This document shows, in pieces, positions 3,293 through 36,067 of a stretch of 64,000 nucleotides of DNA. Within the stretch, counting starts at the first letter, position 1. The number at the start of each line of letters is the position of its first letter. This stretch comes from Dehalococcoides mccartyi 195 (GTDB lineage: Bacteria; Chloroflexota; Dehalococcoidia; Dehalococcoidales; Dehalococcoidaceae), in assembly GCF_000011905.1 (NCBI RefSeq), contig NC_002936.3:1240001-1304000 (forward strand), read 5' to 3'. The notes beneath the pieces were generated by a model. It was not told where the DNA came from and ran no database searches. It saw nothing but the letters and a program-made list of their open reading frames with translations. The translations under genes were made by a program, and so were the position numbers.

Positions 3293-3703
3293 ATGTCTGA
3301 CAAACGAATGCTGATTGTACCGGCGGAGCTGGTAAGGCGGATTGATGAAAACCGCGGCGACCTGAGCCAGGCGGATTTCCTGAATTACCTTATTGACTCT
3401 CAGCTTGGCGGCGAAAACCGCAAGGAAAACGGAATCTCCAGCCAGGAGTTTGAAGCCCTCAAGCAGGACGTTAAGAAACTGCTTGAAAAATCCAACAAGT
3501 CTGCCAGCAGAGAAGAACTGGTCTCCTTCCAGGAAGACACCAAGAAACTCCTCAAGAGTTTCGTGGATTTCTTTGTAGGCTACGGGCTGGAACTGGGCAA
3601 AGGGTCTTCTGCCATGAGTGACCTTGAGGCCTTAAGCAAACTGGGCGGTGCCGGCAGCAAAGACGAAACCCCCGGCGGTGAAGTAAAACTTAAGTGGAAA
3701 TAA
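3293..3703 (+). CDS. Putative ribbon-helix-helix protein with coiled-coil tail
   Basis: I do not recognise a named family. The first 40 residues (KRMLIVPAELVRRIDENRG then LSQADFLNYLIDSQL) have the beta-strand, helix, helix pattern of a ribbon-helix-helix DNA-binding domain. Residues 50-105 are rich in Lys, Glu and Leu with two similar stretches (EALKQDVKKLLEKS and SFQEDTKKLLKSF), suggesting a coiled coil. The last 30 residues are low-complexity and Gly-rich. The start ATG has a clear Shine-Dalgarno (AAGGAG, five-base spacing). It ends before a strong terminator. A role as a transcription factor or DNA-organising protein is inferred only. Confidence 0.5.
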   Translation: MSDKRMLIVPAELVRRIDENRGDLSQADFLNYLIDSQLGGENRKENGISSQEFEALKQDVKKLLEKSNKSASREELVSFQEDTKKLLKSFVDFFVGYGLELGKGSSAMSDLEALSKLGGAGSKDETPGGEVKLKWK

Positions 3704-3731
3704 CCTAAAACAGGCTTCTAAAGACCTGCTT

Positions 3732-3766
3732 AAGCCCTCTTCAGACGAAGAGGGCTTTTTTCTTTT
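3732..3766 (+). terminator. Intrinsic terminator after the ribbon-helix-helix gene
   Basis: AAGCCCTCTTC (3732-3742) pairs with GAAGAGGGCTT (3747-3757) over a four-base loop and is followed by a T-rich tract. It separates the regulator pair from the methyltransferase/GH3 operon. Confidence 0.9.
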
Positions 3767-3781
3767 TCCCCTCAGCTTTAA

Positions 3782-3796
3782 TAGAACATTGTTCTA
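3782..3796. promoter_or_regulatory. Perfect 15-base palindrome, possible operator
   Basis: TAGAACA-T-TGTTCTA is a perfect inverted repeat upstream of the methyltransferase/GH3 operon. A partial copy, TAGAACAT-GTTTTA, occurs at 3838-3851 and covers the ATG at 3844. The arms resemble GAAC/GTTC LexA-type half-sites but the centre is three bases, not four. Confidence 0.5.
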
Positions 3797-3843
3797 GTAT
3801 TTAAAACCTTCCAAGTGTGTTTTGTGTCTGCCATATTTAGAAC

Positions 3844-4433
3844 ATGTTTTATGTATTTATTGGTGCAATCGGTTTTTCACTGGTACATATCTTGATTTTG
3901 TGGCCCTGAAAAAACTGCCGCTTCTCAAGCCCATACTCTGGCTTTCGGGTTCAACCCTGCTGGTGTATGCCGGTTTTATGGTCTGCTTCAACGGAAATTC
4001 ATTCTTACTGCCCGTCTGGCTGAATGCCGCCGGCTGGGCGGTATTTGCAGCAGGCATCTATTTCTTTCTTTATTCCCTCTTTGTAAATCTGCCCTTCGGT
4101 AAAACTTATGTCAAAACCGGAGTGGGAGACAAACTGGTTACCAGCGGGTTTTACGCCCTGGTACGTCACCCCGGCGTACCCTGGTTTGTACTGGCCATGG
4201 CCGGTATGACCCTGGGTGCGGGCACGGACTTTGCCCTGTGGGCGGCCGTTATCTGGAGCCTTTTGGATATATTGCTGGTATACATACAGGACCGCTGGGT
4301 ATTCGGAAAAATGTTTCCGGGCTATGCCCAGTATCAAAAAACCACCCCCATGCTGATACCCAACCGCAAAAGCATTGCGGCTTATATAAAACAGCGTAAT
4401 TTTTCAAATACTATACAAGGAGAAGCAAAATGA
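3844..4433 (+). CDS. PEMT/isoprenylcysteine-methyltransferase-like membrane protein, apparent N-terminal frameshift
   Basis: The main frame (open from 3822 to 4433) encodes a membrane protein with about four hydrophobic segments and the C-terminal signature of the phospholipid/isoprenylcysteine methyltransferase superfamily: GFYALVRHPGVPWF and a final YAQYQKTTPMLIPN. Such enzymes methylate lipids or lipid-linked groups using S-adenosylmethionine. The expected N-terminal helix is in another frame: ATG 3844 gives MFYVFIGAIGFSLVHIL and then stops, while the main frame resumes DFVALKKLPLLKP at about 3891. One missing base near 3889-3893 would join them. The 3' end overlaps the GH3 gene by four bases (ATGA). 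The function of this member is unknown. Confidence 0.65.
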
Positions 4434-6061
4434 CCCAGCTAGGTGAGCTATTTGCACAGGGTAAAGTTGAGGAAATCTGGGACCGCTGCTGCGGTTTTAT
4501 TGACCTCAGCATTGAAGATTTCATGAAAATACAGGAAAGACTTCTTCAGGAACAATTGGAACTCCTTAAAAAATGCGAACTGGGCAAGCACATTTTCAAC
4601 GGGGCAACGCCTACCAATTCAGAGGAACTGAGACGGAGCGTACCCCTTACCACCTATGCGGACTATGCCCCCTTCCTGACTAAAAGACGCATGGATATAC
4701 TTCCCAAAAGGCCTATTCTCTGGCAGTATACCTCCGGCAAAAACGGCGAATACGCCCACCGCTGGGCTCCGGTAACCGCCCGCCAGATGGACGAGGTAGA
4801 GTCTCTGGTTTGGGCAATGGCCCTTTTCAGCAGCTGCAATAAACGCAAGGATATAAATATCCGCCCGAATGATGCCGTACTCTACGGCATGGCACCGCCG
4901 CCTTATGCCACCGGCACTATTGCCCGCTGTTTCCCCCATGAAAAGTTTAATTTTCTGCCCAAAGTAGAGGAGGCCGAAAGGATTCCCTTTGAAGACCGGG
5001 TGAAAAAGGGCTTCCAGATGGCTCTGTCTGAAGGGCTGGATTACTGTTTGTCCATGTCCAGTGTAACTGTAGCCCTGGGCAACCGTTTCAGCCAGAGCAG
5101 CGGCAAAATAAGCATGAAATTCCTGCTGTCTAATCCCAAAGCCATGCTGCGGCTGCTAAAAGGTAAAATCAAGGCCAAGCTGGCCGGCCGCCCCATGCTC
5201 CCCAAAGACCTTTGGAAGGTAAAGGGGCTGATGACCTACGGTATTGACGGCAGTGTCTACCGTGAGAAAATAAAGGAACAGTGGGGGCGCTATCCGCTGG
5301 ATTTCCACGGTTGCACCGAAGCCTTTTTAATAGCTACCCAAACCTGGGACTATTCCAGCATGACCTTTGTCCCCTATATGCAGTTCTTTGAGTTTATACC
5401 TGAGGAAGAGGCGGTAAAGAGCTGGCGTGATACCAGTTATCAGCCCAAAACCCTGCTGATGGACGAACTGAAACCCGGCAACTACGAGGTGGTTATCACC
5501 AGTTTCCACGGCGGCCCGTTCGTACGCTACCGCTTAGGCCACCTGGTACAGATAACATCTTTACGCAACGAAGCTTTGGATATAGATATCCCACAGATGA
5601 TTTACCTGACCAGAGTGGATGACCAGATTGATATTGCCGGTTTTACCCGCCTTTCCGAAAAAGGCATCTGGCAGGCTATTGAAAACAGCCGGGTAGAATA
5701 TGTGGATTGGGTAGCCTGCAAGGAACGGGTGAATAATACACCCCGTCTGCACCTTTATATTGAACCCAAAGATAACACCACTCAGACTAAAGAGGAGGTT
5801 ACAGCCTCTATCCACGAGGAACTCAAAAAGGTACACCCCGGATACGCTGATTTGGAGTCTTTTATAGGTTTGATGCCGCTGGATGTGACCTTTTTGCCCA
5901 AAGGTGCTTTCAAACTCTACAAAATACGCCAGCAGAACGCCGGAGCAGATTTGAGTGATTTGAAGCCCCCGCATCTGAATCCTTCGGCCGGAGATTTGGC
6001 TTTTATGCTGAATACTCCCACCAAGGTAACTGTCAAACAGGAAGAAGCTGTCAAAGTCTAA
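4430..6061 (+). CDS. GH3-family acyl-adenylate-forming protein
   Basis: A 543-residue protein of the GH3 superfamily. Plant members activate carboxylic acids such as indole-acetate or jasmonate with ATP and conjugate them to amino acids; bacterial substrates are unknown. Visible features are an early PLTTYADYAPFL segment, a P-loop-like QYTSGKNGEYAHRWAPVT near residues 99-116, YGIDGSVYREK, HGCTEAFLI near residue 290 (matching the adenylation motif region), GGPFVRYRLGHLVQI near residue 360, and a smaller C-terminal domain ending with a lysine in GAFKLYKIRQQN. Length fits the family. The start ATG has AAGGAG six bases upstream and overlaps the preceding methyltransferase, so the two products may act on one lipid or carboxylate. 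Confidence 0.75.
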   Translation: MTQLGELFAQGKVEEIWDRCCGFIDLSIEDFMKIQERLLQEQLELLKKCELGKHIFNGATPTNSEELRRSVPLTTYADYAPFLTKRRMDILPKRPILWQYTSGKNGEYAHRWAPVTARQMDEVESLVWAMALFSSCNKRKDINIRPNDAVLYGMAPPPYATGTIARCFPHEKFNFLPKVEEAERIPFEDRVKKGFQMALSEGLDYCLSMSSVTVALGNRFSQSSGKISMKFLLSNPKAMLRLLKGKIKAKLAGRPMLPKDLWKVKGLMTYGIDGSVYREKIKEQWGRYPLDFHGCTEAFLIATQTWDYSSMTFVPYMQFFEFIPEEEAVKSWRDTSYQPKTLLMDELKPGNYEVVITSFHGGPFVRYRLGHLVQITSLRNEALDIDIPQMIYLTRVDDQIDIAGFTRLSEKGIWQAIENSRVEYVDWVACKERVNNTPRLHLYIEPKDNTTQTKEEVTASIHEELKKVHPGYADLESFIGLMPLDVTFLPKGAFKLYKIRQQNAGADLSDLKPPHLNPSAGDLAFMLNTPTKVTVKQEEAVKV

Positions 6062-28610: not shown

Positions 28611-29648
28611 CTATTCATCTTTACCGCCTGGCGGTTTGCCGTAGAGTTCGGCCACCAGAGTACTCATAACCAGAGACAGGTAACTGACCGCTGACAATGC
28701 CCTTTCATAGGCCATACGGGTGGGGCCTATCACCCCGATAGTCCCCACCGCCTCGTCCGGTATGCCGTACTGGCTGACTATCAGACTGTAATCACGTATT
28801 TCGGCGGAGGCATTTTCCTGGCCGATATATACCTGCACCCCCCGGTTAAAAGGCGAGGGCGGGGCAATCATCTTGGAAAGCTTTTTCTGCTCCAGCAGCT
28901 GCATTATCTCCTGAACCCGTTGGTTCTGGTGGAATTCGGGCTGCTCCAGCATATAATGCAGCCCGTCAAAGAAAGGTTCGCGGCTTTCCTGCTCGTCCTC
29001 ACCCCGCATCATCTTTATCAGGCTGTCCTTGACCTTCAGTTCATCCGGGTTAAGGTTAAGCGTTTTCTGCTCTATCTGGAAACGGGTCAGCCCGGCATAG
29101 GCGTCATTTAGGCGGTTTGATATAAGGGTGAGTTCCGGCTGGGAAACGGTATTTTCAAAGTTTATAAGCTGCTGCTTTACCTTAGCCCCGCGCAGTATCA
29201 GAACTACCAGTACCAGATTATCCTGTAAGCTGACCAGCTCTATATGATGGACCTTGCCCTGTGTCTGGCGAGGCATGGTAACAACCGCCATACTCTGGAC
29301 ACGCTGGGAAAGGACAGCCACAGTCAGATTCAGCCACTCCTCCATCTCTTTTTCCACCTGATGAAAAAGATGGCGGATAAGAAACTTGTCATTAGTCGGC
29401 AGTTCCACATCTTTAAGGGATTCCACATAATAGCGGTAACCCTTGTCTGCCGGAATACTGCCGGCGGAATGATGGGGACGCAGGATATAACCCTCGGTTT
29501 CCAGCCGCACAACTTCGTTGCGGATAGTGGCCGAACAGATATCCAGGCCACAATCCTCCAGTATGGAAGATGACGATACCGGCACCGCTTTGGTTATGTA
29601 CTGCCTGACTATAGAACGCAGTATTATCTCTGCCCTGGGTGTTAGCAC
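28611..29648 (-). CDS. hrcA: Heat-inducible transcription repressor HrcA
   Basis: Represses class I heat-shock genes by binding CIRCE; its folding depends on GroEL, which couples repression to chaperone supply. 345 residues: an N-terminal winged helix (LTPRAEIILRSIVRQYITKAVPVSS; then DICSATIRNEVVRLETEGYI), a GAF-like middle and the C-terminal dimer region with VGTIGVIGPTRMAYERALSAV. The start is GTG 29648, with CGAGGT about eight bases upstream. The start codon lies inside an extra CIRCE half-site. First gene of its operon, with a degenerate CIRCE at its own promoter. Confidence 0.96.
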   Translation of the reverse strand: MLTPRAEIILRSIVRQYITKAVPVSSSSILEDCGLDICSATIRNEVVRLETEGYILRPHHSAGSIPADKGYRYYVESLKDVELPTNDKFLIRHLFHQVEKEMEEWLNLTVAVLSQRVQSMAVVTMPRQTQGKVHHIELVSLQDNLVLVVLILRGAKVKQQLINFENTVSQPELTLISNRLNDAYAGLTRFQIEQKTLNLNPDELKVKDSLIKMMRGEDEQESREPFFDGLHYMLEQPEFHQNQRVQEIMQLLEQKKLSKMIAPPSPFNRGVQVYIGQENASAEIRDYSLIVSQYGIPDEAVGTIGVIGPTRMAYERALSAVSYLSLVMSTLVAELYGKPPGGKDE

Positions 29649-29688
29649 TCTTGCTACCTCGTTAGCACTCTATTAGCTTGTTTGCTAA
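29642..29688 (-). promoter_or_regulatory. Degenerate CIRCE operator plus an extra half-site before hrcA
   Basis: On the minus strand TTAGCAAAC (29688-29680), nine bases, GAGTGCTAA (29670-29662): the CIRCE layout with two mismatches in the left arm (consensus TTAGCACTC-N9-GAGTGCTAA). A second perfect GAGTGCTAA lies at 29650-29642 and contains the hrcA GTG start. Confidence 0.85.
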
Positions 29689-29775: not shown

Positions 29776-29804
29776 TTGACCCTCTGAAAGGGGTCTGATA
29801 TAAT
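29776..29804 (+). promoter_or_regulatory. Promoter of the metallo-beta-lactamase-fold gene
   Basis: TTGACC (29776-29781), 17 bases, then an extended -10 TGATATAAT with TATAAT at 29799-29804. The ATG is eight bases later, so the mRNA would be leaderless or nearly so. Confidence 0.8.
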
Positions 29805-29812
29805 TCACCCAT

Positions 29813-30445
29813 ATGGAAATAAAATGGTTAGGCCACTCGTGCTTTCGCCTTAAAGGCAAAAATACTACTGTAATTACTGACCCGTTCCCTTCCAGCCTGG
29901 GGTTTGCTATGGGCAAACAAAGTGCCGAGGTAGTTACCGTAAGCCATGCTCATGCCAATCATTCGTTTACCTCAGCTATTGACGGCAACCCCCATATTGT
30001 AAGCGGCCCCGGCGAATACGAAATCGGGGACGTTATCATCTTGGGTCTTTCCACTTTTCATGATGACGCCAAGGGCAGCGAACTGGGCAAAAACACCATT
30101 TACCAGATGGAGATAGATGACTTGTCCATTTGCCATCTGGGTGATATAGGCCAGGGATTGACTGACAGCCAGATTGAAGAGCTGGGACGGGTGGATATCC
30201 TCCTTTTGCCTGTTGGCGGTGGCAATACTGTCAGCCCGGGCAAAGCCGCTGAGATAATGCGCAAGCTGGAACCGTCTATCGTCATTCCCATGCACTTCCA
30301 GAGTGATTTATCCACCAGTTCACTTTTGCCTATAGGCCAGTTTCTAAAAGAAATAGGTATAAGTAGTCTTGAACCCCAATCTAAGCTGAATATCACCAGA
30401 GGCAATTTGCCTGTAACCACTCAGGTTATGTTACTGCAGCCCTGA
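29813..30445 (+). CDS. Metallo-beta-lactamase-fold protein (UlaG-like), altered metal motif
   Basis: A 210-residue protein with the compact UlaG/YtkL-like metallo-beta-lactamase fold: MEIKWLGHSCFRLKGKNTTVITDPF, then SHAHANHSF near residue 45, GPGEYEIGDVII near 64, ICHLGDIGQGL near 105, and PMHF near 160. The metal motif is normally HxHxDH; here it reads HAHANH, so the aspartate is Asn and one metal site may be weakened. Relatives are usually annotated as Zn-dependent hydrolases of unknown substrate. It starts with no Shine-Dalgarno and a promoter eight bases upstream. The caspase-like gene follows after 40 bases. Confidence 0.75.
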   Translation: MEIKWLGHSCFRLKGKNTTVITDPFPSSLGFAMGKQSAEVVTVSHAHANHSFTSAIDGNPHIVSGPGEYEIGDVIILGLSTFHDDAKGSELGKNTIYQMEIDDLSICHLGDIGQGLTDSQIEELGRVDILLLPVGGGNTVSPGKAAEIMRKLEPSIVIPMHFQSDLSTSSLLPIGQFLKEIGISSLEPQSKLNITRGNLPVTTQVMLLQP

Positions 30446-30485: not shown

Positions 30486-32015
30486 ATGCACTGCCTGAAA
30501 CGGATTGCTATTTCCGCCATTCTGGCTTTGGGGCTTTTGGCAGGCCTCCTGCCCCAAACACCGCTTAGTGCTGCCTCCACCCATGAATACTGGGCGGTAG
30601 TAGTGGGCATTTCGGATTACCAGAAAATTACAGATGTATCAGGCTTGGCCAACGGCGCCCAAAAATTCGCAGCTTCCCTAAAGCAAGCTTGGGGCGATGA
30701 CCATGTAAAGCTGCTGACCAACAGCAACGCTGATAAATCTTCTATAAAGTCCGCCCTGGACTGGATGATAGGCCAGGAAGATGACAATGATACAGTGGTC
30801 TTTTTCTTTGCCGGACACGGTGACAGCCAATCATATATAGCCCCTTATGACGCTTATTATGTTTCGGAATGGATTTCAAGCCAGGAGCTTTCCAACTGGC
30901 TCGCGCCGCTGGAATCCCATTATCAGGCTGTAATACTGGAATCCTGCTATTCGGCCGGATTTGCTGATGATTTAAACCAAACCGGGCGGGTAGTTCTCTA
31001 TTCGTCACTGGCAGAAGAAGTCTCCTGGGCAGACGGGGACAGCGGCCTTTTTTCCGGATACATAAATGACGGTCTCAGCTATGTGCCGAATGCGGACATA
31101 AACGGTGACGGTCTGATATCTCTGGAAGAGCTCTTCTTCTATGCCCAGCCCCGCACTACAAATGAGTCCCGCTTAGCTTTATCTCTGCAGCATCCCTTCC
31201 TGTCAGACGGCATAGGCGGAGAGCTTAGCCTTATCGGCAAGCTGCTTCTGACCACCTCCATACCTATAAGCGGCAACTATAACTACATAATAGTAGACGG
31301 CCAAACCTATTCACTCAGCTACACGCAATTAAATTTCACTCCCGGTACTACCCATGAGATTACCGCTTTGAACATAGATGCCCTGCCAGGGGTGCGTTAT
31401 TTTTTCAATAGCTGGGCAGACGGGGTTACCTCTGCCAGCCGTTCATTTGTCAGCGGGGCTAACCTTGAGGCAGTTTATTCCCGCCAGTATCTTTTAACAA
31501 TAGACTCCCCTACCACCGCAGTCAGCGGCAGCGGATGGTATGACCAGTACACCTTTGCCAACCTTTCAGCCCCGGATATAGAAGAAGGCGGTATCCGTTA
31601 TACATTTACCGGCTGGAGCGGTGATATAACAGGACCTTTTGACAGTACCCGTATTGTGATGGACAAGCCCAAAACTGTAAAAGCGAACTATGATATTGAA
31701 TACCTGCTGAATTTGTCTTCCCCGTACGGCACACCTGAAGGCAGCGGCTGGTATGCCGCCGGCAGCACAGTGAAACTAAGCGCACCTAAAGCGGAAGGCT
31801 TTTTAATCCGCCAGGTATTTGAAAGCTGGAGCGGAGACTATACCGGTACAAATGCCAATGCTGTTATCACCCTTAACAAACCCCTGAATATCTCCGCCAA
31901 TTTCAAGGCAGACTATACTTTCCTGTATATTGCCATTGGACTGGGGGCAATTGTGATTGGCTGGATAATACTGGCCGTATCCAGACGCCGGAAAATCTAT
32001 TACAATACTATCTGA
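30486..32015 (+). CDS. Exported, membrane-anchored caspase-like protease with InlB-type repeats
   Basis: A 509-residue protein. A signal peptide (1-30, ending PLSAAS) leads into a caspase/metacaspase-like C14 domain (about 33-190): EYWAVVVGISDYQ, the catalytic histidine in FFFAGHGDS (His111) and cysteine in VILESCYSAGF (Cys154). An EF-hand-like calcium loop, ADINGDGLISLEE, follows at 203-215. Two repeats resembling InlB B-repeats (about 305-395 and 396-475, each with SGSGWY or EGSGWY, then W-S-G-D) precede a C-terminal transmembrane helix (about 476-500) with an RRRK stop. The protease should therefore face outside the cell, probably calcium-dependent and Arg/Lys-specific; targets are unknown. 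Shine-Dalgarno GGAAGGA is present. Confidence 0.8.
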   Translation: MHCLKRIAISAILALGLLAGLLPQTPLSAASTHEYWAVVVGISDYQKITDVSGLANGAQKFAASLKQAWGDDHVKLLTNSNADKSSIKSALDWMIGQEDDNDTVVFFFAGHGDSQSYIAPYDAYYVSEWISSQELSNWLAPLESHYQAVILESCYSAGFADDLNQTGRVVLYSSLAEEVSWADGDSGLFSGYINDGLSYVPNADINGDGLISLEELFFYAQPRTTNESRLALSLQHPFLSDGIGGELSLIGKLLLTTSIPISGNYNYIIVDGQTYSLSYTQLNFTPGTTHEITALNIDALPGVRYFFNSWADGVTSASRSFVSGANLEAVYSRQYLLTIDSPTTAVSGSGWYDQYTFANLSAPDIEEGGIRYTFTGWSGDITGPFDSTRIVMDKPKTVKANYDIEYLLNLSSPYGTPEGSGWYAAGSTVKLSAPKAEGFLIRQVFESWSGDYTGTNANAVITLNKPLNISANFKADYTFLYIAIGLGAIVIGWIILAVSRRRKIYYNTI

Positions 32016-32058: not shown

Positions 32059-32556
32059 ATGGAAGCATATTTAGATATTGAAACAACCGGCCTTTCGCCT
32101 TATCAGTCAGAACTTACAGTTATAGGTATCCATCTGGTAAACGGAGACTCTATACCGGGCCTTATCCAGCTGGTAGGTAAAGAATGCACCGCCGAAAACG
32201 TGATGGCTTCTTTAGCAGGTACAGACATACTCTATACCTACAACGGCAAGGGGTTTGACCTGCCGTTCATTCACCGAAAACTGGGTATAGACCTCAGCCG
32301 CCATTTCAACCACCGTGACCTCATGTTTGACTGCTGGGACAAAAACCTTAAAGGCGGGCTGAAAAAAGTGGAATGCCAGCTGGGTATCTCACGTGAGCTT
32401 ACCGAAGTAAACGGTTATATAGCCGTTCAGCTATGGTGGAGTTATATAAATAACTTTGATACCCGGGCACTAAAAACATTGCTGGCCTACAACCGGGAAG
32501 ATGTAGTAAACCTTAAAACCCTTAAAGACATGCTATTGAATAACTGCACCTATTGA
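32059..32556 (+). CDS. DEDD-family 3'-5' exonuclease-like protein (YprB/RNase_H_2 type)
   Basis: A 165-residue single-domain protein of the ribonuclease-H-like DEDD superfamily. Motif I is YLDIETTGLSP (Asp6, Glu8), motif II YTYNGKGFDLPFIHRK (Asp near residue 65), and motif III YNREDVVNLKTLKDML near 149. Relatives (YprB-like) occur as stand-alone nucleases or fused to helicases; DNA or RNA specificity is not known. It follows the caspase-like gene after 43 bases and has a rather distant AAAGGA as its ribosome site. Confidence 0.75.
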   Translation: MEAYLDIETTGLSPYQSELTVIGIHLVNGDSIPGLIQLVGKECTAENVMASLAGTDILYTYNGKGFDLPFIHRKLGIDLSRHFNHRDLMFDCWDKNLKGGLKKVECQLGISRELTEVNGYIAVQLWWSYINNFDTRALKTLLAYNREDVVNLKTLKDMLLNNCTY

Positions 32557-32611: not shown

Positions 32612-32737
32612 ATGGAATGGTATGAAATCCTTCTTATTGTGGTTGTACTCTGGGCGGTAATTCACACTTACATGGATATGCAGATTAAGAAACAGGTGGA
32701 AAAACTCCAGAAAGAGTTTGATTCCCACAAGCACTAA
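32612..32737 (+). CDS. 41-residue single-pass membrane protein
   Basis: A small gene too short for usual gene calling. ATG 32612 follows a clear GGAGG (32600-32604) and encodes MEWYEILLIVVVLWAVIHTY followed by MDMQIKKQVEKLQKEFDSHKH. Residues 5-18 form a transmembrane segment and the rest a charged amphipathic helix, probably cytoplasmic. A terminator follows 20 bases after the stop, which supports a real transcript end. The family is not recognised; it could be a regulator or assembly factor of a membrane complex. Confidence 0.65.
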   Translation: MEWYEILLIVVVLWAVIHTYMDMQIKKQVEKLQKEFDSHKH

Positions 32738-32756: not shown

Positions 32757-32785
32757 TAAAGGGCCGGAGGAATCCGGCCTTTCTT
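32757..32785 (+). terminator. Terminator after the small membrane protein
   Basis: AAAGGGCCGGA and TCCGGCCTTT form a stem over a short loop, followed by CTTTATTT. Confidence 0.85.
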
Positions 32786-32988
32786 TATTTCGGCAAACTT
32801 CATAACAGGCTATTATCCCCACCCCCCAGTACGCCGTTTCAGCCATTTTCCGGCACTTTACAGCTAAATTCCTTTTGTCTGCCAGGCATTGCCCAGTTTC
32901 TGACTGTAAGCCCCCAGGACGAACCGGCTATTATTATGTAAATTTACAGCCCAAAAAGTTTAGACCGTCCTAAAAATCCTTAAAATAG

Positions 32989-33017
32989 AAGAGCCCCCCG
33001 TTTCCGGGGGGCTCTTT
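32989..33017 (-). terminator. Strong terminator of the surface-layer-like gene
   Basis: AGAGCCCCCC and GGGGGGCTCT make a ten-base-pair GC-rich stem with a six-base loop, 45 bases after the gene's stop. T-rich sequence on both sides lets it act in both directions. Confidence 0.85.
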
Positions 33018-33061
33018 TTGGTTACTTTAGGACTGTTAGTCCTTTTTCACTTTGTAGTTTA

Positions 33062-36000
33062 TTAGACTACGCGGCGAGTGCGAACAATCAGGACGATTAC
33101 GGCGATAGTCAGTACAGCACCGACAGCCACAATCAGCCAGATGTAGGCAGGAATTTCAGCCTGGGGTACTTCTAAGGTGATGTCCGGAGGATTATTTACT
33201 TCAACCGCAGCGGCATCAGCCTTAACAGTAGTGAATACAGCCGGGAACCATTCGCTGGTGCTGTTGGCGGTATTGACGCGAACTCTCCAGTAGTAGCTGG
33301 CGGAGTTGTCAAGAGTGCCGTCATAAGCCCAGTAATTGGTGGTCAGGTTCTTGGTAGCCAAAACCTTGGTAGCATCAGCGAAGGTAGGATCGGTGCTGAG
33401 AATAAGGTCATAGCTTACAGCAGTAGAAACTGAATCCCAGGCGAATACGGGGTTAACGGGTACGTTTGAAGCACCGTTGGTGGGCATCAGGTTAAAGTTG
33501 TAGGTCAGTTTTTCGGGCTGGGTGGAGACTGAAGCAGTACCCACGAAGCTCATGACCGGATCAACAGCCCAGACGCTTATCTGATAAACGGTGTCTTCGT
33601 CAAGACCAGTTACTTTAAGGGTAGTAGCGGTAGTTTCAGTACCAGTAGTGGTACCGTAAGCAACCTTAACAGCAGTAGCAGCATCGGTAACTATTATATA
33701 GTAACCAACGGTTACATTGCTGTTATCAACATTCAGAGCGTCCCAAGTGATAGTGAAACCTTCAGTAGTAACCTTAGTGGTCTGAACGTTGGCTACGGGT
33801 ACAGCCATCTTGTCGGTGTAAACATACAGTTCGTCATCAAAGATACCGTAAAGCATGTTAGCACCGGGGGCGGCAATACCAATCAGTTTGTATGCATCAC
33901 TGGCAGTAGTAGGAGCAGGAATAATACCAGCTTTGTAGGAAGTACCAACATTGGTGATACGGATCAGGTTGTCCCAATCACCATCCAGTACATACAGGAC
34001 ATTTCCGCCGGAAGCAATACCGGAGAAGATGCCTACACCCTCATCAACATCAGCATAGCTGCCGCTGTCAAAGGTATTGCCAGTGGTAACAACGTTATCA
34101 ATCTGGATCCAGGCAGGAGCGGTAGCAGCGAAGTCATATTTGTAAGCGCCGCCATTGCTGCTGGTCAGATAGACAACATCATTGCTGCCGTTCTGGAAGG
34201 TTACAAGAGAAGTACCAGAAATTGCAACAGCGGTAGGAGTGCTCCAGGTAACGCCACCATCGGTGGATCTTGAAATGCTGCCATTTGAACCGCCAACTAC
34301 CAGGGTAGAACCGTCAGTTGAAACGGCAAATGAGGTAACAGTGCCAACAGCACAGGCGCGGCCAAACCAGAAAACACCATTGGTGCTGGTCTGGTAAACC
34401 TTGCCTGAACCACCAACCAGAACAGTGTTGGCATTGGAAACGAACCAGGAATTGATAGTAACACCACCGTCAACAGTGGTAATGCTGCTTACCTGAGCGG
34501 TAAAGGTCTGGCCGTTATCCAGTGAACGCCAGATAGTAGTACCGCCGAGGTCAGCTACAAATACAGCGTCACCAGCGGGTGAAACGGCAACATCAATGTA
34601 GCCGCTCTCAGAAACCATGGAGGTTGAGAAAACGCGCTCGTAAACGCCATTGGTCAAACGCCAGACGCTGCCTTCAACATAGTCATAGGTGACTATGAAG
34701 AGGTTGCCGGCAATGTTGTCAATTTCGGTAATAGCCTGGCTCATCATGGAAATCTGATTCCAGGTTTTGCCGAAGTCAGCAGTGTAGGAAACACCACAAT
34801 CCCAACCACCGGTACCAGCAAGAGCTTTACCGGAAGTGGCAAAGTCAGCCAAAGCCAAAACGGTTACTTCCGCATTATACCAGCCATCATTACCAGTGGG
34901 AGCTTTGCTGGTCTTGGCGAAGGTAAGGCCGTCAGCAGAATACCAGGTGCTGGGGACATCAGTGGCAGTGCTAAGGTAACCGCCGATAATCAGTTTGGCA
35001 GTGCCAACACCACCGGCGCCGTCAATGTCAGATACTTCGGTTTCAGAGCCAAGACCGCTGACGTTAAGGTCAATGGTCTTGTCAGCGCCGCCGTACCACA
35101 GGTAGACGTCACCCTGTCCACTGAAGGTGGCAAGGGCAAGCCAAGCCTGGAACTTGCCGGAGGTCAGGCTGGAGCTGAAGTCAGCGGGCAGCCAGAGTTC
35201 GGCATGATAAGGCGTAGCAATGATGGTAACATTGTCCTGCATAACCTCTGCATCTTTGCAGAGAGCAGTCTGGTTCCACTGATTGCCGAAATATTTGGCG
35301 GTAATGACAGTTTTGCTAGAATTATTGGTGGCAACTGCAAGAACGCCCTGTTTGGTAGCAAAATCAGTGGGGTCTACCACTACATCCCAAACGCTGCAAG
35401 CGGTCCAAGCAGAAGCGCGCTGAGAATCAATGTCGAGGTCAGACCAGGGCATACCGAAAGCGGTTTCCTGGCACATATATACGCCGTTGCCACTATCAGT
35501 GCCGCCAAAAACGGCAGTGCCGACAAAGACGTATTTGTTAGCGCCGGCATAACCGATGTCAAGGGTGACAATCAGGTTAGTGCCAGAAATGGGAGGGGTA
35601 GCCCAAGCATTGGCGGTAGCCCAAGTAAATACGTTGGACAGATAATTCCAGGTAGCACCGCCATCTTTGGAGGTGAAGATATCCCTACCATCGGTGAAAT
35701 AGAGTTCATTGACATTCACGGAGGAAGCAACGAAATCATAGATAATTCCACCAGTTACAGTCGGGATAGTCAGTTTTTTCCAAGTGCGGCCAGCATCAGT
35801 AGATTTGAAGATAGCGGCTGCACCGTCATATTCGGCAGTGGCATAGACAGCAGATTTATCTGCGTTCCATTCCAAAATGCCGATGTTGTCAAACCGGTCA
35901 CCGGGAGCACTTACTACATAGCCGCCGGTTGAGCCGGAGCCGGGCAGGGAGATTTTGCTCCAAGCCTGGTTGGCAGCAGCTACGGGGGTAGCGACTGTGA

Positions 36001-36067
36001 ACATGGAAAGAACCATGGCAGCAGTCAGGACTACGCCCAGCACTTTACTTATTTTTGTCTTAAACAT
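33062..36067 (-). CDS. Large cell-surface protein with Asp-box (BNR) repeats, S-layer candidate
   Basis: A 1001-residue exported protein. The signal peptide ends near TPVAAANQAW (about residue 33). Residues 40-740 contain many Asp boxes of the form SxDxGxTW (STDAGRTW, SKDGGATW, TADFGKTW, SLDNGQTF, STDGGVTW) typical of beta-propellers of the sialidase/Vps10 type. A fibronectin type III-like domain spans about 760-850 (TTEGFTITWDAL), a second similar domain about 860-950, and a C-terminal transmembrane helix (about 972-995) ends in RTRRVV. Ser/Thr/Ala-rich composition, a terminator and a strong leader suggest high expression. It resembles the protein proposed as the Dehalococcoides S-layer. It is monocistronic. 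Confidence 0.75.
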   Translation of the reverse strand: MFKTKISKVLGVVLTAAMVLSMFTVATPVAAANQAWSKISLPGSGSTGGYVVSAPGDRFDNIGILEWNADKSAVYATAEYDGAAAIFKSTDAGRTWKKLTIPTVTGGIIYDFVASSVNVNELYFTDGRDIFTSKDGGATWNYLSNVFTWATANAWATPPISGTNLIVTLDIGYAGANKYVFVGTAVFGGTDSGNGVYMCQETAFGMPWSDLDIDSQRASAWTACSVWDVVVDPTDFATKQGVLAVATNNSSKTVITAKYFGNQWNQTALCKDAEVMQDNVTIIATPYHAELWLPADFSSSLTSGKFQAWLALATFSGQGDVYLWYGGADKTIDLNVSGLGSETEVSDIDGAGGVGTAKLIIGGYLSTATDVPSTWYSADGLTFAKTSKAPTGNDGWYNAEVTVLALADFATSGKALAGTGGWDCGVSYTADFGKTWNQISMMSQAITEIDNIAGNLFIVTYDYVEGSVWRLTNGVYERVFSTSMVSESGYIDVAVSPAGDAVFVADLGGTTIWRSLDNGQTFTAQVSSITTVDGGVTINSWFVSNANTVLVGGSGKVYQTSTNGVFWFGRACAVGTVTSFAVSTDGSTLVVGGSNGSISRSTDGGVTWSTPTAVAISGTSLVTFQNGSNDVVYLTSSNGGAYKYDFAATAPAWIQIDNVVTTGNTFDSGSYADVDEGVGIFSGIASGGNVLYVLDGDWDNLIRITNVGTSYKAGIIPAPTTASDAYKLIGIAAPGANMLYGIFDDELYVYTDKMAVPVANVQTTKVTTEGFTITWDALNVDNSNVTVGYYIIVTDAATAVKVAYGTTTGTETTATTLKVTGLDEDTVYQISVWAVDPVMSFVGTASVSTQPEKLTYNFNLMPTNGASNVPVNPVFAWDSVSTAVSYDLILSTDPTFADATKVLATKNLTTNYWAYDGTLDNSASYYWRVRVNTANSTSEWFPAVFTTVKADAAAVEVNNPPDITLEVPQAEIPAYIWLIVAVGAVLTIAVIVLIVRTRRVV

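Follow-up and report, generated by a model that had tools for sequence, protein, structure and literature searches.

The window, a stretch of 64,000 nucleotides from Dehalococcoides mccartyi 195, encodes a caspase-like protein of peptidase family C14 in which, as sequence and structural model indicate, a caspase fold with an intact His/Cys dyad is combined with an altered S1 pocket. We read this protein as an exported, membrane-tethered clan CD peptidase with a retuned S1 pocket that trims or clears surface proteins, a reading to which we give an even chance. Its gene (30486-32015, + strand) is an intact frame of 509 amino acids from ATG to TGA. The ORF is genuine, and the architecture described in the original prediction stands. 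The features of the protein are listed below.

30486-30575, + strand: signal peptide, residues 1-30, with n-region MHCLKR, a hydrophobic core and the AxA-like end LSAA; no lipobox
30576-31250, + strand: C14 (caspase-like, clan CD) domain, residues about 31-255; PF00656, AlphaFold2 pLDDT about 80-98
30654-30656, + strand: Gly57, aligned with the S1-pocket Asp of metacaspases (TbMCA2 Asp95); from alignments
30816-30818, + strand: His111 of the putative catalytic dyad, in FAGHGD, directly after a core strand; invariant in three species
30939-30941, + strand: Glu152, two before the catalytic Cys (TbMCA2 Asp211; mostly Asp in relatives); from alignment
30945-30947, + strand: Cys154 of the putative catalytic dyad, in LESCYSAG, directly after a core strand
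30954-30956, + strand: Ala157, three after the catalytic Cys (Gly in relatives); from alignment
31095-31130, + strand: EF-hand-type 12-residue loop DINGDGLISLEE, residues 204-215, then a helix; from sequence and model
31248-31484, + strand: r0, a divergent InlB-like repeat at residues about 255-333; aligns with r1 and r2 of the same protein, beta in the model, below Pfam detection
31485-31694, + strand: InlB-type repeat r1, residues about 334-403; partial Flg_new_2 match, below cut-off on its own, and self-alignment
31695-31913, + strand: InlB-type repeat r2, residues about 404-476; Flg_new_2 match over cut-off
31917-32012, + strand: C-terminal transmembrane helix (residues about 478-500) and basic tail SRRRKIYYNTI; model helix 478-508

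Fold, export and accessory domains

The Pfam model Peptidase_C14 matches residues 36-193 (E 6e-13, 49.4 bits against a cut-off of 21.4), with a weaker match to C13 and a likewise weak one to CHAT. The NCBIfam model caspase_w_EACC1 aligns with residues 36-223, but at 45 bits against a cut-off of 140. An AlphaFold2 model built on 17 relatives reached a mean pLDDT of 88.4, and Foldseek matched it to MALT1, metacaspase 9, caspases, legumain and GPI8 (E 1e-9 to 1e-7); the caspase core expected by the original prediction is present in it. The catalytic domain modelled by itself from a single sequence came out poorly (pLDDT 46), and that model was discarded. His111 and Cys154, which form the dyad at the positions first proposed, follow consecutive core strands of the model (103-109 and 146-152), and this is where clan CD enzymes place their catalytic His and Cys (PMC4357240). 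Cys154 is the single Cys of the mature protein, and the orthologues of the two other species in the genus have no further Cys anywhere in their sequence. No separate Pfam match was obtained for a p10 part; the EF-type loop and a strand at 238-241 come after the p20 part.

The signal peptide and C-terminal membrane helix claimed earlier are clear in the sequence, and the model has helices at residues 2-21, followed by disorder at 22-29, and at 478-508. Relatives carry clear AxA signal-peptide ends, e.g. APAQA or VYA. Hydropathy along the C-terminal helix peaks at residue 479, and the RRRK that follows is positive inside. A type I membrane topology is predicted, with the catalytic domain outside, and the relatives that bear cytoplasmic-type FHA or zinc-ribbon domains beyond the same helix are consistent with it. 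The protein is likewise predicted to be exported and tethered, in agreement with the extracellular rather than cytoplasmic location proposed at the outset. No LPxTG-like sorting motif is found in ADYTFLYIA, which precedes the helix. Sortase anchoring was rejected, as the NCBIfam LPxTATN model scores 15.5 bits, far below its cut-off of 32.

Between the catalytic domain and the helix, the Flg_new_2 / InlB B-repeat model (PF18998) matches two stretches (E 6e-12, 45.8 bits against a cut-off of 23.6). The two InlB repeats of the original prediction are clear at Pfam level, but the count was one short: a third, divergent repeat precedes them. InlB-type repeats over cut-off are present in only one further gene of this genome, at G000:C1:1450762-1451394 (L160), whose 456-residue frame has three repeat copies and a membrane helix in its interior and lacks a peptidase domain.

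The EF-hand-like loop was also recognized correctly and is of canonical form. Its ligand-type residues D204, N206, D208 and E215 (positions 1, 3, 5 and 12) are present in three species of the genus, position 6 being Asn in the other two, and the Pfam EF-hand match lies below cut-off. A chance motif was rejected given its conservation in relatives: the Glu at position 12 occurs in 94 of 95 alignable dyad-intact relatives and in 12 of 13 dyad-less ones, frequencies that are biased somewhat upward since one of the two collection patterns contained the end of the loop. Profile-search matches, which are free of this bias, mostly carry the loop too. The loop would bind a cation, probably Ca2+. As it is common to most relatives, including dyad-less ones, it is not readable simply as a cleavage switch; its outlasting of the dyad makes stabilization of the fold more likely than switching of catalysis.

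Conservation, pocket divergence and loss of the dyad

The single contig of 1,469,720 bases that makes up the genome has just one C14 gene. Full-length orthologues are present in two other species of the genus (86% and 81% identity), single-copy and between the same flanking genes. Purifying selection is seen in dN/dS values of 0.10-0.13 for the whole protein and of 0.08-0.10 for the C14 domain and the repeats alike. The low dN/dS, together with Cys154 as sole mature Cys in the three species, indicates that the protein and its nucleophile are maintained. The gene is more than a product of chance.

Relatives further afield were found only once an alignment of relatives was used; a single-protein scan of the genome contigs detected none. 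A profile of the three catalytic domains matched 22 of 156 Dehalococcoidales genomes, the weakest of these matches being ordinary cytosolic C14 proteins, and a wider profile matched 38 of 393 genomes of the class. The named contigs from the pattern search include Dehalococcoidales, Peptococcaceae, ANME-1, Ignavibacteria and Saprospiraceae. The succession of signal peptide, C14 domain, EF-type loop, InlB repeats and helix recurs in the Dehalococcoidales set, in some members as tandem arrays of up to five genes. Two such arrays, in L049 (849-7216) and L052 (1443-6672), mix dyad-intact and dyad-less copies. None of the eight genomes of the sister genus, which we take to be Dehalogenimonas, has a full-length C14-InlB protein. 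One short relative in that genus (L006:1471-2034, + strand) has the His and Cys, is without signal peptide or repeats, and lies beside a transposase-like gene. In a quick tree the stem leading to the genus of the window is long, at 1.07 changes per site, and the nearest relative outside that genus is the dyad-intact L047 protein (SH-aLRT 97).

The proteins of the genus depart from this family at three positions of the active site, and all three species share the replacements. Among 102 dyad-intact relatives outside the genus, the S1-pocket Asp is kept in 95 (Gly57 in the genus), the Asp two before the Cys in 90 (Glu152) and the Gly three after the Cys in 99 (Ala157). In profile alignment the DDDA stretch of the family falls on the xNDA stretch of solved metacaspases, including Asp95 of TbMCA2; the exact numbering is our reading, and the pockets are compared by alignment, not by structure. 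Asp95 is a pocket residue of TbMCA2 (PMC4357240), and the characterized C14 enzymes other than caspases are all described as strictly basic at P1 owing to an acidic pocket (PMC5756287). By alignment, the acidic S1 pocket associated with Arg/Lys preference is missing here. Since the acidic S1 residues are altered, cleavage probably occurs after residues that are not simply basic, or is slow. The Arg/Lys specificity suggested earlier is accordingly doubtful on sequence grounds; the assay proposed for it is fair, yet Arg/Lys cutting is not the outcome we would expect.

Export itself is less of a surprise than first supposed. Among 671 prokaryotic caspase homologues surveyed, 15% had transmembrane helices, of which many are likely signal peptides, and extracellular roles, including action on neighbours, have already been proposed (PMC3501461). 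Export of a caspase homologue is not new; the divergent part is the pocket of this genus.

The long stem branch and the three active-site departures could also reflect weakened or lost catalysis. The main rival to a working peptidase is a surface sensor or binder that is barely or not at all catalytic, in which the caspase fold would act as an ectodomain that binds a ligand or a protein, and the dyad would be left over or make a regulatory cut only. We hold this to be possible, though distinctly less probable than a surface peptidase. It owes its rank to the relatives: of the 26 distinct proteins in the InlB-type subfamily, a few of them truncated at contig ends, 11 are without the full dyad and keep the EF-type loop and anchor, and one protein carries FHA on the cytoplasmic side. 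In the quick tree of 44 rows the state of the dyad changed seven times, with at least three changes forced by well-supported branches. With close relatives losing the dyad repeatedly, catalysis is not what the whole family retains. Dyad-less members with an FHA domain, or with zinc ribbons beside protein-kinase or TIR genes, point in the same direction, as do the three pocket departures of the Dehalococcoides protein, and a complete dyad need not mean activity (PMC5756287). Against a sensor, His111 and Cys154 are fixed in three species, with Cys154 the sole mature Cys, the tail is short and has no signalling domain, and the nearest outside relative has its dyad intact.

Several dyad-less relatives can be described individually. 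The protein at L053:3447-5672 (+ strand) combines InlB repeats and a membrane helix with an FHA domain at the C-terminus (E 5e-15), and resembles a transmembrane receptor whose ectodomain has a caspase fold. Those of L055 (5911-7449) and L057 (5971-7446) end in zinc-ribbon tails. The former neighbours a protein kinase with a zinc-ribbon-like tail (3847-5880), and the latter two TIR-like genes (3639-5240 and 5253-5885), of which one has TPR repeats and one a zinc-ribbon-like tail. A 2019 survey listed three pseudo-orthocaspases in Chloroflexi and zero in Dehalococcoidia (PMC6426788). The Dehalococcoides protein is itself no pseudo-orthocaspase, a type defined by loss of the His or Cys, as both residues are in place. 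On a tentative and broader reading, of rather low probability, it is an extracellular C14 peptidase with P1 moved off Arg/Lys, within a surface family that has repeatedly lost catalysis to yield transmembrane receptors, in which an ectodomain without the dyad faces outward and the tail with FHA or zinc ribbon lies inside the cell.

Genomic neighbourhood

The C14 gene lies between two genes of the same strand, the first with a promoter-like sequence before it.

29776-29804, + strand: promoter-like TTGACC-17-TATAAT (sigma-70-like) before the upstream gene; from a scan, 11 of 12 positions, consensus only
29813-30445, + strand: MBL-fold (metallo-beta-lactamase) hydrolase gene, 40 bp upstream of the C14 gene; PF13483, E 9.5e-52
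32059-32556, + strand: RNase_H_2 / 3'-5' exonuclease-like gene, 43 bp downstream of the C14 gene; PF13482, E 1e-40

A conserved operon with these two genes was rejected. Both are present in the sister genus, but far apart, so their grouping with the C14 gene is no evidence of shared function. Further downstream, a small ORF of 41 codons (32612-32737, + strand; MEWYEILLIVVVLWAVIHTYMDMQ...) with a GGAGG site likely encodes a small membrane protein and is followed by a terminator-like hairpin at 32759-32782. On the upstream side, two direct GAGTGCTAAC copies (29641-29670, - strand) precede an hrcA-like gene, where none is expected by chance; they stand head to tail, in contrast to the usual inverted CIRCE element. 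The C14 gene of the window is near hrcA-grpE-dnaK, and the genes of relatives in L048, L050 and L054 adjoin a DnaJ-MerR/HspR-like chaperone cluster, which in L048 and L054 comes with a ClpB-like gene; this proximity to chaperones may be coincidental.

The original prediction drew attention to a nearby surface-layer-like gene. This gene (33062-36067, - strand), presumably DET1407, does adjoin the C14 locus in all three species, but it is convergent with the C14 gene and forms its own transcription unit. A S-layer candidate is among the most abundant proteins of these bacteria (PMC5102406). The C14 protein is unlikely to be a dedicated maturation protease of this neighbour. In favour of such a role, the adjacency holds throughout the three species, both products are predicted to be exported, and an S-layer homologue is present in every one of the 12 genomes that count as InlB-type carriers. 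The two convergent genes are nevertheless separated by a strong hairpin of bidirectional terminator-like form (32987-33018), and 124 of the 156 Dehalococcoidales genomes have S-layer homologues, including all eight of the sister genus, where the full-length C14-InlB protein is lacking. Across the 156 genomes, S-layer homologue and peptidase show no significant association (p 1.0 when any match counts, 0.13 for the InlB type), and no S-layer-like gene was seen in the neighbourhoods of relatives outside the genus.

An effector of programmed death, fratricide or phage defence is the least probable role considered: C14 homologues occur in such systems, a PADLOC caspase profile matches at 2e-14 and extracellular homologues have been proposed to act on neighbours (PMC3501461), but no defence partner genes are found near the gene, which has the MBL-fold hydrolase and exonuclease-like protein as neighbours, it is single-copy in the same place in three species with low dN/dS and no diversifying selection seen, and the catalytic domain is predicted to lie outside the membrane, beyond reach of intracellular triggers.

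Known systems and proposed role

The closest likeness is to orthocaspases, such as MaOC1 of Microcystis aeruginosa, which share the p20-type fold and His-Cys dyad, commonly have extra C-terminal domains and are in some cases exported or membrane-bound (PMC3501461, PMC5756287). The Dehalococcoides protein differs from them in its pocket, which is without the acidic S1 set (Gly57 for Asp, Leu54 at the pocket-Cys position, Glu152, Ala157), and in its EF-type loop, whereas characterized orthocaspases are reported to work without calcium (PMC5756287). Type I metacaspases (TbMCA2, yeast metacaspase-1) have the same core fold and give the best sequence matches to solved structures (profile E 7e-8 to 2e-4), over the first half of the domain only, the match ending after the His region. 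Type I metacaspases are marked by a calcium-dependent p20 plus p10 with a 280-loop, and a match of this length gave no evidence of such a loop. The protein differs from them in having Gly57 as Asp95 equivalent and in being predicted to be exported with a stalk. MALT1 paracaspase is the top Foldseek match (E 1.6e-9) and likewise has a caspase fold followed by a beta domain; it is, however, a human intracellular signalling protein with 10-12% identity, and the repeats here are InlB-type, not Ig. With pseudo-orthocaspases the link is through many dyad-less relatives of the same architecture, while the protein itself keeps its dyad.

We place it as a putative clan CD cysteine peptidase, p20-type, orthocaspase-like and type I membrane-tethered. 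In the surface-peptidase reading, Sec would export the protein, signal peptidase would remove the N-terminus and the C-terminal helix would anchor it in the membrane. The three InlB-like beta repeats would form a rod raising the catalytic domain toward the surface layer, and the EF-type loop beside the core would bind a cation, probably Ca2+, stabilizing the fold. His111 and Cys154 would then cleave exported or surface proteins as substrates, and the likely role of this activity would be surface-protein trimming or clearing, not programmed death. Literature searches on Dehalococcoides and caspases, the neighbouring DET locus tags and C14 proteins in Dehalococcoidia yielded nothing on this gene and no activity, localization or expression data, and the papers searched had nothing on surface processing in these bacteria.

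A single-copy, conserved peptidase that is predicted to be exported is a concrete candidate for processing the surface of these bacteria. Given that characterized C14 enzymes other than caspases are all described as basic at P1 (PMC5756287), natural proteins that combine an intact dyad with a remodelled S1 pocket would test how P1 specificity is set. In addition, the many dyad-less relatives that keep the same anchor and EF-type loop offer a clean system for studying a role of the caspase fold on the cell surface without cutting.
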